A stretch of DNA of 59,606 bases from a virus. A program made the position numbers and the translations under genes. This document shows positions 7,679-13,800 of this stretch, one piece after another. Under the pieces are notes generated by a model. That model made no database searches. It saw only the letters and a program-made list of their open reading frames with translations, and had not been told where the DNA came from. The DNA lies in the IMG/VR virus record IMGVR_UViG_3300008262_000074, positions 1-59,606 of that record; one strand, given 5' to 3'. Position 1 is the first letter of the stretch; each line of letters starts with the position of its first letter.

Positions 7679-8770
7679 ATGAGAATAAATCCAACCGAAA
7701 AGCAAAAAATATACAAACAAGCCAAACATAGGCTTGGGGCTCCTATTAGGAAGATTCAATTAGAAGATGAACAAATGGACTCACTTCTTGAAATCGCTAC
7801 AGAAGATTATGTTGAGTTTATTAATAATTGGTTGATTGAACACCAATGGCCGAGTTTGATTGGTTTAAGCGTTAGCGAAGCTGATTTAACCAGGGCTTTT
7901 ATTTATAGAACTTTTGATTTAGTCACACAATACACATACTCCTACTCAAAAATTGTTGGTTTGGGTGCTGGTGAGGGTGGTTATGTTCTTAAAAAAGATT
8001 ACGTTGAGTTAGTTAAGGGTCAACAAATATATGAGATTCCAGCAAATAGAGAGATAAATGAAGTGTTATGGTTTACACCAGCTTCATTGGATCAATCTGT
8101 AATCGACCCATTCTTAGGTGTTTGGAACAATCAATTCGGTGCCGAATATATGGGTTTGGGTAGTTATTACATTTTACCAGCTTTTGACATTTTAATGAGA
8201 ACAACGGATAGAAACCTTAAAAATAGGATGATTCGTTCTGAGTTAATATATAAGATCACAAATGCGCCTGATGGCAAAAAATATCTTCATTTAATGAATA
8301 CGCCAGGTGGTAAATTTGACTTTAGGGGTTCAATGCTAGATCAAGGTAAATGTTGGTATTGGTATTATGATATTAACCCATTAATTAAAGATGATTGTTT
8401 GGCAAAAAACAAAGATATCATTAAATCACCAGCTGATGTTCCTCTGGATGATATATCATTTGATGACCTAAATGATCCAGCTAAAGTTTGGATTAGAAGA
8501 TATTTTATTGCTTTGTGTAAAGAAACTTTGGGTAGAGTAAGAGGTACTTTTGGTGGTAAAATACCAGTTCCAGACGCAAATATGGAAATTGAATACCAGT
8601 CACTTTTATCAGAAGGTAAGGATGAAATGGTTACACTTAAAAAAGAATTAGAGGACAGAATGTTCAAATTAAACCCATTGGAAATTCTTAAAAGAATGTC
8701 TACTGAGGCTGAAGAAATTAACAAAGCTCTTAAATACAGAGCGTTCCAAAAACCAATTAAGATTATATAA
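7679..8770 (+). CDS. Neck protein (T4 gp13-like)
   Basis: A 363-residue protein from the ATG at 7679, placed 15 nt after a late-type element; the upstream ATG at 7622 would run through the promoter. The N-terminus (AKHRLGAPIRKIQLEDEQMD) matches the T4 gp13 pattern of an Arg-Leu-Gly-Ala-Pro turn followed by a helix with DxQ/EQ and a Tyr-rich helix (EDYVEFINNW). The C-terminal region VWIRRYFIALCKETLGRVRG followed by IPVPDANMEIEY is typical of neck proteins in T4-like phages. gp13 joins the completed head to the tail. The next gene starts within the stop codon, so the genes are translationally coupled. Confidence 0.7.
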   Translation: MRINPTEKQKIYKQAKHRLGAPIRKIQLEDEQMDSLLEIATEDYVEFINNWLIEHQWPSLIGLSVSEADLTRAFIYRTFDLVTQYTYSYSKIVGLGAGEGGYVLKKDYVELVKGQQIYEIPANREINEVLWFTPASLDQSVIDPFLGVWNNQFGAEYMGLGSYYILPAFDILMRTTDRNLKNRMIRSELIYKITNAPDGKKYLHLMNTPGGKFDFRGSMLDQGKCWYWYYDINPLIKDDCLAKNKDIIKSPADVPLDDISFDDLNDPAKVWIRRYFIALCKETLGRVRGTFGGKIPVPDANMEIEYQSLLSEGKDEMVTLKKELEDRMFKLNPLEILKRMSTEAEEINKALKYRAFQKPIKII

Positions 8771-10425
8771 TGTTTTATACAGCCCTAGATAATAGTGATT
8801 ATTTTGATTTAATTGTCACAAAAGATTGTCGTGATTTTTATCGTGATTATAACGAATGTAATTTAATAAATATTAATATTACTGAAAATCTATGCTCAAT
8901 ACCTGGGAGTATTCAAACAGAAGAAGTTGAATTAAAAAACATAACGTTAACAGGTTATGATAATTTTTTTATACCCAACGGAGAGATATCAAATATCAAT
9001 AATTTCACGGGTGACACAATAGGATACACTGTGAATGAAAATATTGTTGTTGACGTTAATAAAGATTTAACATATGTTATTGAAACTGGTGATACTTTTT
9101 GTTTTCATGAAATATCTGGTTATAGCGGAAATTACTGTTATGAGATTGATCACCTAAATGTTGACAATGGTATATACTATAATAAATTAAATGGCGGTTT
9201 TTACCAGGGATTCTACAAAATTTTTGGTGAAAATGTTGAGTGGTTCCCAGCTAGAGCAAAAATGGGTTGGACCGTTGATATGGTTGTCCATTTCCCAATG
9301 GATGTACCAGGTAGTTCAGGGTCATCTGGTAGTTCAGGGTCTTCTGGATCATCTGGCAGTTCTGGTTCTTTTGGGTCTTCTGGATCATCAGGTAGTTCTG
9401 GGTCATCTGGTAGTTCAGGGTCTTCTGGATCATCTGGTAATTGCGTAACTCTAAATAAAGTATATCCAAATAATAGCGGTTTTATTTTTTATCTGGGGAC
9501 AAGAGCTGAAAATAAATTTGCTGATAAAACTGATATTGAAATTCAAAGATTTGAGGATAATTACGACATAGTACCTCTAAACACAACAAATTTATTTACC
9601 TATAATAACCTAATAACATTAAATGGTTTAACGAATTATATTGGTTATTTTAATTATTATAATGGTTTAATGTATACTGGTAGAAATTATACAGTAGACT
9701 CACAACCTTTACAATACCACCAAGAATATAGTGATCTCACGTATAATGCGTTTGGTATAAGAGTCACCAATGATGGTAGAATCGGTTACAGAACAATATA
9801 CCCAACTGATATATGTTATACAGGCGTAACCCAAGAAGTTAGTGGTATAACAAACAACTCGTTTATTATGGACCCAATTGATGACTGTGTTAATTATACA
9901 AGATCACTAATTGTTACAAAATATTTTACAATAGAGGAGTGTTATACAAAAAACCCTGTTATTGATGTAACGGAAAATAAATTCTTGAATATAACTGGTG
10001 TATTTGAAAGAGATTTTTCTTATGGGAATAACTGTCAGTTAAAATATGGTGATTATAAAAAAGGTACCTTCTCAATATACCTTAATGGGTTCTTAGTTTT
10101 TAGGAATAGGAATTTTGTTGAGGTGATACCACATGAATTAGATATTGATTCGAAATACCAGGAAGGTGTCCCCTTTAATATTTCATTTGGTGGTGGGACC
10201 CAAAGCTTAATCGACCCTGTGGTATTTGATGAAAACAAAGTACTTGGTACTGTTTTAGAAAGATTTTTTGCTGGAACATTCCTAGGTGGTGTTAAATCAA
10301 TTAAAATGTATTGTGTACCATTGTACACTGTTGAGGTTAAAAAAGAATTTAGAAATATTGCGGGTATATATAATTTGCCGATAATAAAGGGTGGTAGACA
10401 GATATTTATAAAAAATTTATTCTAA
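8770..10425 (+). CDS. Virion protein with a Gly-Ser-Ser repeat block
   Basis: A 551-residue beta-rich protein that I cannot assign to a family. Residues about 181-226 are an almost perfect tract of 15 Gly-Ser-Ser triplets with one Phe interruption, separating an N-terminal region (1-180) from a C-terminal region (227-551). The tract recalls the triplet repeats of the giant fibre at the right end of the window, so this may be a fibre, whisker or fibre-attachment protein. It overlaps the preceding neck gene by one base and the next gene starts inside its stop codon, which places it in the same late unit. Confidence 0.6.
   Translation: MFYTALDNSDYFDLIVTKDCRDFYRDYNECNLININITENLCSIPGSIQTEEVELKNITLTGYDNFFIPNGEISNINNFTGDTIGYTVNENIVVDVNKDLTYVIETGDTFCFHEISGYSGNYCYEIDHLNVDNGIYYNKLNGGFYQGFYKIFGENVEWFPARAKMGWTVDMVVHFPMDVPGSSGSSGSSGSSGSSGSSGSFGSSGSSGSSGSSGSSGSSGSSGNCVTLNKVYPNNSGFIFYLGTRAENKFADKTDIEIQRFEDNYDIVPLNTTNLFTYNNLITLNGLTNYIGYFNYYNGLMYTGRNYTVDSQPLQYHQEYSDLTYNAFGIRVTNDGRIGYRTIYPTDICYTGVTQEVSGITNNSFIMDPIDDCVNYTRSLIVTKYFTIEECYTKNPVIDVTENKFLNITGVFERDFSYGNNCQLKYGDYKKGTFSIYLNGFLVFRNRNFVEVIPHELDIDSKYQEGVPFNISFGGGTQSLIDPVVFDENKVLGTVLERFFAGTFLGGVKSIKMYCVPLYTVEVKKEFRNIAGIYNLPIIKGGRQIFIKNLF
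9310..9440 (+). repeat. Gly-Ser-Ser coding repeat tract
   Basis: Imperfect 9-bp units of the type GGTAGTTCA/GGGTCATCT encode consecutive Gly-Ser-Ser triplets. The varied codons keep the DNA units non-identical, which limits but does not remove the chance of slippage. Confidence 0.85.
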
Positions 10426-10872: not shown

Positions 10873-13800
10873 ATGATTATGGCCGAATACAAGATTTCCC
10901 TTGAAGAGATAGAAAAGTTTTTAAATGGGCACGATGATGAGAAATACATCGTGAATGTTGAGTACGATGCCGAAACTAATCTGATCCATAAAGTTAAACA
11001 AGATCCAGAAAGGGGTAATTATATTGAAACCGAACCATTACTCGCTTTCATGTGGATTAAAAACCTTAATAAAATTAAGGAACTAACCAATTTTTACGGT
11101 AATAGTGATGCCAAAATTAAGTCCGCTAGACAAAGATTTGGTATTGAAATCAAAGCTTTAGGTGGTGACCACCCAAAGTTAATTGACGGTTATAGGTATT
11201 TGGTTACATGTAATCAGGGTCACAAAAGAATGTTAGATTTTTTTAGAGAGGGTGGTATTTTTGTTTACGACAAAAGACATGATATTAACACTCATTTCTT
11301 AATGATATCACCTGTCGAGCAGTATTTTATACATACTGGTAAGCGTTTGTTTAAGGGATTTGAAGAATACGATGAGATTCACAAATTTATATTTGACTTA
11401 GAGACAACAGGGTTAGACCCAGCCATCAATCGTATTTTCTTGATTGGTATCTACACCAATTTAGGCGTTAGAGAAATCATACCCGTTGAAGATGATGATG
11501 AATCTGAAAGACAAGCCATTACAAAATTCTTTGAGAAAATTAATGAGATTAAACCAACCATCATTGCTGGTTATAATAGTGCAAACTTTGACTGGCCATT
11601 CTTCTTTAAAAGATGTGAAATTCTTGGTTTAAATATTCAGGATATCGCAATTACCTTAAAAGTTGGTGAATTAATCAACAACAAAGATAGTATTTTAAAG
11701 CTGGGTAACGAGGTTGAGGACTACACCCAAACTAATATGTTTGGTTATAGCGTTATCGATATCATACACTCAGCTAGACGTGCACAAGCAATTGATTCAA
11801 GCATGAAATCGGTTGGTTTGAAATATGTTTGTAAGTATAACAAGATTGCAAAAAAGAATCGTGTTTATATTGTTGGTGATAAAATTGGTAACACATGGTA
11901 CTCAAAAGATAAATTTTATTTTGATGATAGAACAGGTGCCTACTCTAAAACAAAACCAGCTTTGGAGTTCATGGATTACATTCGTAGAGAAGATGTTCAG
12001 GCTAACCCAGATAAAGTGTTTGTTTTTGGTGATAATATTTTAAGACAAGGACTTGGCGGTCAGGCAAAAGAAATGCGTGGAGAACCGAATGTCATTGGTA
12101 TCGTAACCAAGCACACCCCAGAATCAACACCAGAATCTTATTTCAATGATAAGGATTTTGAAATACTTAAAAAACACATAGATTCCGATATTAATCAAAT
12201 AATCGAAAAGATTAAAGAAGGTAAGACAATCGTTTTCCCTAAAATGGGTATCGGTACAGGTTTGGCTCAGTTAGATATGAGAGCCCCAAAAACATTCAAG
12301 TATCTAAAGGGTTTATTAAGTGCGTTACGTGATTACATTAATACTTTTCAAGAAGTTGATGGTAGATATATCGTTGAGCGTTACTTGATTGATGACTTAT
12401 GGGAAACTATGGAAGTGGACGATGTTTATAACCAGTCATCGTTCTTGTTAGCTAAATTAGTACCAACAACATATCAAAGGGTTTCTACCATGGGTACAGC
12501 TGGTCTATGGAAATTATTGATGATGACGTATTCATTTGAAAATGATTTGGCAATACCAGTATCGGATGTTAAAAGAGATTACACAGGTGGTTTATCAAGA
12601 TTATTTAAAGTTGGTTATTCAACCACTTTAAGAAAGATGGACTACAACTCACTTTACCCAGCTATTCAGTTGGCCCATGATGTATTCCCAAGTGTTGATG
12701 TTAACGGTGCGATGAAATCGATGTTAAAGTATTTCCACACCGAACGTTTTAAAGCTAAAAACTTAGCCAGCAAATACAAAAAAGAAGGTAATTACCAATT
12801 GGCTGACAAATATAAACGTAAACAATTACCACTTAAGATCTTTATTAACTCGATGTTCGGTGCCCTTGGTGCACCTATGGCTTTCCAATGGGCTGAAATT
12901 GATGTCAGTGAACGTATTACTTGTACGGCAAGACAATACTTAAGATTAATGGTTACATTCTTCCTTAAACGTGGGTACACGCCTTTAGTACTTGATACGG
13001 ATGGTGTTAACTTCATGGCACCAAAGAACGGTGAGCCATTTACCTATATCGGTAAGGGTTTAAATGATGAGGTTGAAGCTGGTAAAGAATATACTGGTGT
13101 TAAAGCTGTGGTAGCTGAATTTAATGACACCTATATGCGTGGTGAGATGGGTCTTGGTTTAGATGGTATTTGGCCAGCGACAATTAACTTATCTAGGAAA
13201 AATTACGCTTTACTAGAAGATGACGGGTCAATTAGTTTAACTGGTAACAGTATCAAATCAAAAGCTATGCCCGTTTACATTGAAGAGTTTTTGGGTAAGG
13301 GTATGAAAATGTTATTGAATGGTCATGGCTATGAGTTTGTACAATATTACTACGAATACGCTGAGAAAGTGTGTAATAGAGAAATACCTTTAGCTAAGAT
13401 TGCCACAAAAGCTAGGGTTAAGAAGTCGATAAATGCTTATATAAATCGTGGTGGTGATAAAAATGGTAAGCAGTTGGCAAAACAAGCTCACATGGAGTTG
13501 GCAATAAAACATAATCTTGATGTTAATCTTGGTGATACAATTTATTATGTTAATAATGGTAAAACAAAATCACATGGTGATGCCCAAGAAAATAAGGATG
13601 GGGAAATGTATGCAACATTGGTACCAAATGAAATTATTGAAAACCAACCAGATTATATTGGTGAATACAATGTACCTAAATATTTAGAAGCCTTAAATAA
13701 AAAGGTTGAACCTTTATTAGTTGCGTTTCCACTTGAAGTTAGAGATAAAATTTTAATTAAAAAATCTGGCGAAAGAACAATGTTCTTAAGATCTGAGTTA

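Follow-up and report, generated by a model that had tools for sequence, protein, structure and literature searches.

A DUF7831 domain of probable macro-like fold inside the exonuclease module of a T4-like phage DNA polymerase

A complete DUF7831 domain between Exo II and Exo III

The polymerase gene of a T4-like phage raises the question of what an entire additional domain, inserted into the proofreading module of a replicative enzyme, could be doing there. The window, by which we mean the whole 59.6-kb IMG/VR virus record analysed here (59,606 nucleotides), carries T4-like myovirus genes, as a profile scan of 44 window proteins returned gp20-type portal, gp23-type capsid, prohead protease, tail sheath and terminase families among the matches listed. 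The polymerase is encoded by a 1034-residue frame that stays open from end to end, insert included, and an identical protein (100% identity) is present in a 206-kb contig (L001). An earlier sequence-only reading had proposed that a discrete domain separates Exo II from Exo III without breaking the frame, and a profile search of the insert bears this out by recovering a complete DUF7831 domain (PF25176; profile positions 2–116 of 118, 150 bits against a cut-off of 27) flanked on either side by the Pfam DNA_pol_B_exo1 and DNA_pol_B profiles (Table 1). PHROG 2072 likewise matches polymerase residues 364–477. The limits first assigned to the domain, residues 370–487 (11980–12340), place it correctly and are slightly narrow relative to the sequence that is extra in comparison with insert-lacking polymerases. 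Elsewhere in the window, several glycosyltransferase, carbamoyltransferase and FkbM methyltransferase profiles are among the matches listed and suggest sugar-modification genes, and a Ser-Ser-Gly repeat run (9310–9435) lies within a 551-residue protein (8770–10425).

Table 1. Coordinates of the polymerase, its motifs and the inserted domain in the window
Feature	Position	Strand	Basis
Family B DNA polymerase (gp43 type), 1034 aa	10873..13977	+	ORF; PHROG 262 E 3.1e-43
Exo I motif FIFDLETTG, residues 172–180	11386..11412	+	D175, E177 invariant, 54-polymerase alignment
Exo II motif, residues 232–244	11566..11604	+	N235, D240 invariant, 54-polymerase alignment
Extra segment relative to insert-lacking polymerases, about residues 361–492	11953..12348	+	Polymerase alignments
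DUF7831 domain (PF25176), macro-like, residues 365–479	11965..12309	+	Pfam E 2.6e-44
First loop motif FGDN-x2-R-x-G-x-GGQA-x2-MR, residues 385–402	12025..12078	+	Near-invariant in 52 non-polymerase DUF7831 sequences; degraded in 9/35 fused contigs
T412-K413	12106..12111	+	K413 at TARG1 Lys84 position, in a low-posterior part of the hhalign alignment
Second loop motif P-x2-GIGTGLA, residues 456–465	12238..12267	+	Aligns with TARG1-class P-x-I-G-C-G-L loop
Exo III motif, residues 500–511, directly after insert	12370..12405	+	Y504, D508 invariant, 54-polymerase alignment
Polymerase motifs A (DYNSLYP), B (KIFINSMFG), C (DTDG)	12634..13008	+	Catalytic residues invariant

The enzyme that surrounds the insert is a family B polymerase in both sequence and predicted fold. 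The segments that we take to be Exo I–III and motifs A–C are all present with their catalytic residues, which in the polymerase module (motif A D590, motif B K655 and N659, motif C D708 and D710) are invariant in 54/54 aligned polymerases, so that the proofreading and polymerase motifs do lie intact around the insertion, as initially supposed. In agreement with this, the whole-polymerase model (pLDDT 86.9, pTM 0.77) fits RB69 gp43 with Z 22.9 and an engineered PolB of archaeal type with Z 26.6. The exonuclease and polymerase motifs are common to the window enzyme, T4/RB69 gp43 and archaeal family B polymerases, and Exo III, immediately after the insert, lines up with the sequence VAKYSMEDAK of an archaeal PolB of known structure. 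In the two archaeal PolB chains with listed alignments, Exo II and the Exo III side are separated by only about 54 residues, too few for a DUF7831 domain.

Across the 54 aligned polymerases the insert is present in 16 rows, and in the other 38 the two flanks are connected by a short loop; insert-lacking relatives can thus be aligned directly across the site, and an ordinary exonuclease subdomain shared by gp43 relatives is ruled out. BLAST alignments of insert-lacking relatives stop at window residues 341–375 (400 in L166) and resume at 463–497, and the length of the insertion loop differs among these relatives. A targeted scan returned 61 loci, and the match spans both the insert and Exo III in 35 of them, each on an IMG/VR contig, with Exo III in the same frame as the insert in every one of them. 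Because these are separate contigs, the fusion is not an assembly artefact, and a chance match is likewise ruled out by the DUF7831 E-value of 2.6e-44. The architecture itself, a DUF7831 domain inside a polymerase, is a near certainty.

Several polymerase genes in the collection are interrupted at other positions. In L052 (2843–6186; on the same contig as L275) the fused polymerase ORF is split downstream of the insert into slightly overlapping frames of 797 and 339 residues, possibly through a frameshift or a sequencing error. Among insert-lacking relatives, the motif C site of L027 (4956–9362) is interrupted by extra in-frame sequence that matches a LAGLIDADG profile, the frame of L028 (5004–9604) is split at that site with another ORF in between, in an intein-like arrangement, and the polymerase of L029 (3686–9818) is split at the same point. 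No intein profile was found in the window polymerase or in that of the fused relative L055.

The signature had also been said to occur in small stand-alone phage proteins, and DUF7831 is indeed otherwise seen as a separate protein. A tblastn search with the insert matched 99 of 50,697 phage records, all at less than 60% identity; among eight records that we fetched, the domain is a separate annotated gene in seven and lies in an unannotated open frame of 405 residues in the eighth. The stand-alone copies, for example in Rhodobacter phage RcXuper, Sinorhizobium phage phiM9 and Caulobacter phage phiCbK, correspond to the insert end to end with about 40–50% identity and the same conserved residues, but are free proteins (about 125–150 residues in the seven annotated records) that are not joined to a polymerase. 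The window insert in turn has all conserved residues of the family (FGDN, GGQA-x2-MR-x-E-x-N, TK and GIGTGL).

Among the closest described systems are the jumbo-phage fusions reported by Iyer, Aravind and colleagues, in which ADP-ribose-network domains (DUF4326, Macro, NADAR, SLOG) are attached to replication or restriction components (PMC7824862, in part); these involve other domains, and the available portions of PMC7824862 and PMC9503650 describe no insertion into a polymerase exonuclease. No such domain is mentioned in the available part of a review of PolB diversity (PMC7544198). Within the literature searched we found no paper on DUF7831 and, in keeping with the original claim, no described family B polymerase with such a domain, so that the fusion appears undescribed there, the enzyme being of a familiar kind and the module built into it new.

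Fold of the insert and its relation to TARG1-class macro domains

The original description of the insert as macro-like has fared less evenly. Modelled alone from 69 sequences, residues 360–496 are predicted with a mean pLDDT of 94.9, and a Foldseek search against the PDB yields no match at E ≤ 0.001, the best hit (0.069) not being a macro domain. When Foldseek's 1000 best chains, and only the folds on that list, were realigned with VIA-align, rows 1–16 were all macro domains, although redundantly so, as they represent six proteins and ten of the rows are alphavirus entries. TARG1 (2l8r) heads the list with 108 residues aligned at rmsd 3.6, and its Z of 7.2 falls short of 8, the level that the tool treats as comfortable. 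It is followed among the macro rows by BT1257 (Z 6.7), the Getah and chikungunya domains (about 6), DarG (5.6) and IBV (5.4), and the first non-macro row scores 5.2. A sequence search with TARG1 finds DarG as well as BT1257, so that the latter (2fg1, row 3) counts as a macro domain and three of the six proteins belong together. Against viral models, Foldseek gives nine matches at 0.001 from phages and giant viruses such as Tupanvirus, and six of these carry the name DUF7831.

Profile comparisons point in the same direction over part of the domain. The Pfam Macro profile (PF01661) does not match the insert, for which DUF7831 alone is listed at E values up to 1, and a PDB sequence search with the DUF7831 profile gives chance-level matches only. 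However, hhalign aligns DUF7831 with ten phage TARG1-class macro domains at E 1.5e-4 (score 31.3) over 45 columns, that is over one half of the domain, and at E 2.3e-4 (score 30.3) over 44 columns once TARG1 is added, with match probabilities of 44–51%. These scores exceed the maximum reached by 200 column-shuffled controls (23.3) and by reversed controls (14.2), whereas two accepted macro groups score 38.5 against each other. A second macro profile of six sequences, presumably in part of MacroD type, scores 21.6 against DUF7831, inside the null distribution.

In the order of their elements the insert model and the TARG1 and DarG structures agree, with a glycine loop, a strand ending in T-K, a helix, a further strand and a P-x2-G loop. 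In a longer alignment forced in local mode, K413 falls on TARG1 K84 with low posterior, and TARG1 Asp125 is replaced by Ala or Ser at the aligned place in DUF7831. The predicted insert has four strands, fewer than we take TARG1 to possess, which together with the missing TARG1-type aspartate and the weak sequence match over one half sets it apart from its best structural matches and leaves any hydrolase activity putative. A compact fold of macro type, closest among solved structures to the TARG1-class ADP-ribose hydrolases, is supported by the macro-only block of VIA rows and by a profile match above shuffled controls, but is not settled, given the lack of a significant Foldseek match and Z-scores below 8.

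The same evidence bears on an improbable alternative, in which the domain performs a different nucleotide or nucleic-acid chemistry on a fold only distantly related to macro domains. The Foldseek and Pfam Macro results would fit this view, as would the retention of R402, E404 and N406 even in inserts with an otherwise degraded pocket; it sits poorly with the block of macro domains at the top of the VIA list and with the TARG1-class profile match.

Inheritance and selection of the fused domain

A quick maximum-likelihood tree of 59 polymerases, computed with the insert columns excluded, places 20 of 21 insert-bearing rows in one clade (100% SH-aLRT). The exception is L055: its insert sits where the other fused polymerases have theirs, and its backbone falls among insert-lacking rows; a clade of all 21 is rejected (AU p 0.0006) on a tree with long branches, L055 included, and an earlier FastTree analysis put L055 elsewhere among the insert-lacking rows with low support (0.41). 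In a tree of the insert itself (69 sequences, 17 from polymerases), all polymerase inserts group together, L055 included (support 0.963). As the backbone and insert trees disagree on L055, the presence and absence of the insert need two changes, and one early gain with one loss fits as well as two gains. Recent transfer of the insert between polymerase lineages is ruled out, because the L055 insert is as diverged from that of the window (pN 0.341) as are its flanks (pN 0.342). The DUF7831 insert is shown to be inherited together with the polymerase.

The insert is under purifying selection, yet changes faster than its flanks in most pairs. Nei-Gojobori dN/dS ratios, which are rough because in many pairs dS approaches or exceeds 1, range from 0.037 to 0.204 in the insert and from 0.027 to 0.063 in the flanks over 15 pairs of the group with intact pocket motifs, and one further pair, L119/L120, gives 0.235 and 0.098, respectively.

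Within 24 records of the polymerase group, possibly fragments, DUF7831 occurs only as the fused copy, namely in 9/9 records with a fused polymerase and in 0/15 with an insert-lacking one, and no second, independent DUF7831 gene is present in the nine fused records. Nor do Pfam Macro or NADAR genes compensate for the missing insert in any of the 15, so that phages of this kind seemingly do without these domains. The sole NADAR match among the 24 records belongs to a fused-polymerase phage, that of L052 (G007:C1:11848-12279), and the Pfam Macro domain is found in none of 16 phage records (eight other DUF7831 carriers, seven fused and one insert-lacking).

Candidate roles of the replicase-borne domain

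We propose, with a probability of roughly 35%, that the replicase carries a reader or eraser of ADP-ribose-type DNA marks, perhaps countering a DarT-like defence, a reading assembled from sequence, predicted structure and analogy. A complete DUF7831 domain has entered the length-variable Exo II–Exo III loop of a T4-like replicase with the catalytic motifs spared. In members with an intact pocket, the domain would bind ADP-ribose-type marks carried by the copied DNA or close to it and would probably remove them, K413 taking the part that Lys84 plays in TARG1 and Lys80 in DarG. The replicase would thereby bring along its own means of erasing what host defences that ADP-ribosylate DNA, such as DarT, have added; where the pocket is degraded, the domain would probably have been retained as a structural or binding element. 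The more specific scenario, in which the replicase strips ADP-ribose from the copied strand, confers resistance to DarT-type defence and has later become inactive in some lineages that keep the domain, follows by analogy and is rather doubtful. If true, a macro-like domain in the proofreading module would be a direct enzymatic answer to DNA-ADP-ribosylating defence.

The proposal draws on reports that thymidine-linked DNA ADP-ribosylation is reversed by TARG1, DarG and SCO6735, with Lys84 and Lys80 as the catalytic lysines of TARG1 and DarG (PMC9411070, in part). Host DNA-ADP-ribosylating systems are reported to stop phage replication, and phages to escape DarTG through mutations in their DNA polymerase (PMC11348598, PMC10684548 and PMC11481870, each in part). 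The lysine is a weak marker, since SCO6735 works although lysine and aspartate are both absent, and Asp125 defines TARG1 rather than the whole class, since DarG too is without the Lys/Asp dyad (PMC9411070, in part). A DNA eraser is disfavoured by the absence of Asp125, by the contigs with a degraded pocket, by the failure to find a DarT partner and by a survey that argues for mostly soluble derivatives as the targets of phage ADP-ribose-acting domains (PMC9503650, in part). As to the partner, a DarT profile search found two partial matches in one of 13 DUF7831-bearing bacterial genomes and none in five fused phage records, and a DarG-like pairing of DUF7831 as antitoxin of a bacterial DarT is unsupported.

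Decay of the pocket provides an argument for a possible, though unlikely, alternative in which the domain is a structural or binding module that contributes stability, DNA contacts or protein-protein contacts and in which the old pocket is irrelevant. Most pocket motifs are degraded in 9/35 fused contigs, although the TK pair is present in 34/35 with TR in the remaining one; this makes a single catalytic role for all members unlikely, and the domain is nevertheless kept: three pairs of the degraded group give dN/dS ratios of 0.067–0.090 in the insert and 0.038–0.059 in the flanks, with saturated dS. The variable length of the insertion loop in insert-lacking relatives fits this view as well. 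On the other hand, 26/35 fused contigs pass all four of our (loose) motif tests, and 13 of 17 distinct polymerase inserts, the other four having been set apart by eye beforehand, retain almost every position that is conserved across 52 non-polymerase copies; the absence of the domain from 38/54 aligned polymerases likewise speaks against a structural role.

Elsewhere, too, DUF7831 is found in contexts connected with the handling of DNA or with signalling by nucleotides, as judged from profile matches. The domain was matched at 50 bacterial loci, at 17 of which an SSB ORF ends no more than 250 nt upstream of it. In very large frames of virus contigs it occurs together with an N4 virion RNA polymerase profile (L058), beside a cpYpsA SLOG domain (L078), with a 2OG-Fe(II) oxygenase of an AlkB-containing profile (L293; L089 is below that cut-off) or with helicase profiles (L296), and it is the sole profile match in L054, L115, L295 and L118.

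In a further alternative, which we hold to be just as unlikely as a structural role, the domain could sense or scavenge a soluble ADP-ribose- or NAD-derived molecule, either a nucleotide made by a host defence or a reporter of NAD state, and alter polymerization or proofreading without acting on DNA. The Macro and NADAR domains of phages have been suggested to favour soluble derivatives of ADP-ribose (PMC9503650, in part), the SLOG association in L078 is accompanied by SLOG genes at 7/50 bacterial and 4/71 virus DUF7831 loci searched, and the stand-alone copies need no polymerase. Sensing of a soluble molecule leaves unexplained, however, why the domain is located inside a replicase or, in bacterial elements, beside SSB. 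Least probable of all is self-protection, in which the domain removes ADP-ribose from the polymerase's own side chains against host ADP-ribosylation, as TARG1 acts on protein-linked ADP-ribose besides DNA (PMC9411070, in part) but the SSB and other DUF7831 contexts point to nucleic acid, and the consulted portions of the literature mention no host enzyme acting on a phage replicase in this way.

With DUF7831 present in phages, giant viruses and bacterial loci, the polymerase fusion offers a first experimental handle on the family. The 17 SSB-linked loci (L190, L193, L202 and L212 among them) all come from MAGs titled Acidobacteria or Pyrinomonadaceae and are not 17 independent events; this common origin, together with RNase H and relaxase genes nearby in the group, makes a shared mobile element likely. 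The gene order in L190 is SSB, DUF7831, second SSB, RNase H and MobL relaxase, and a SLOG gene lies upstream in L202.
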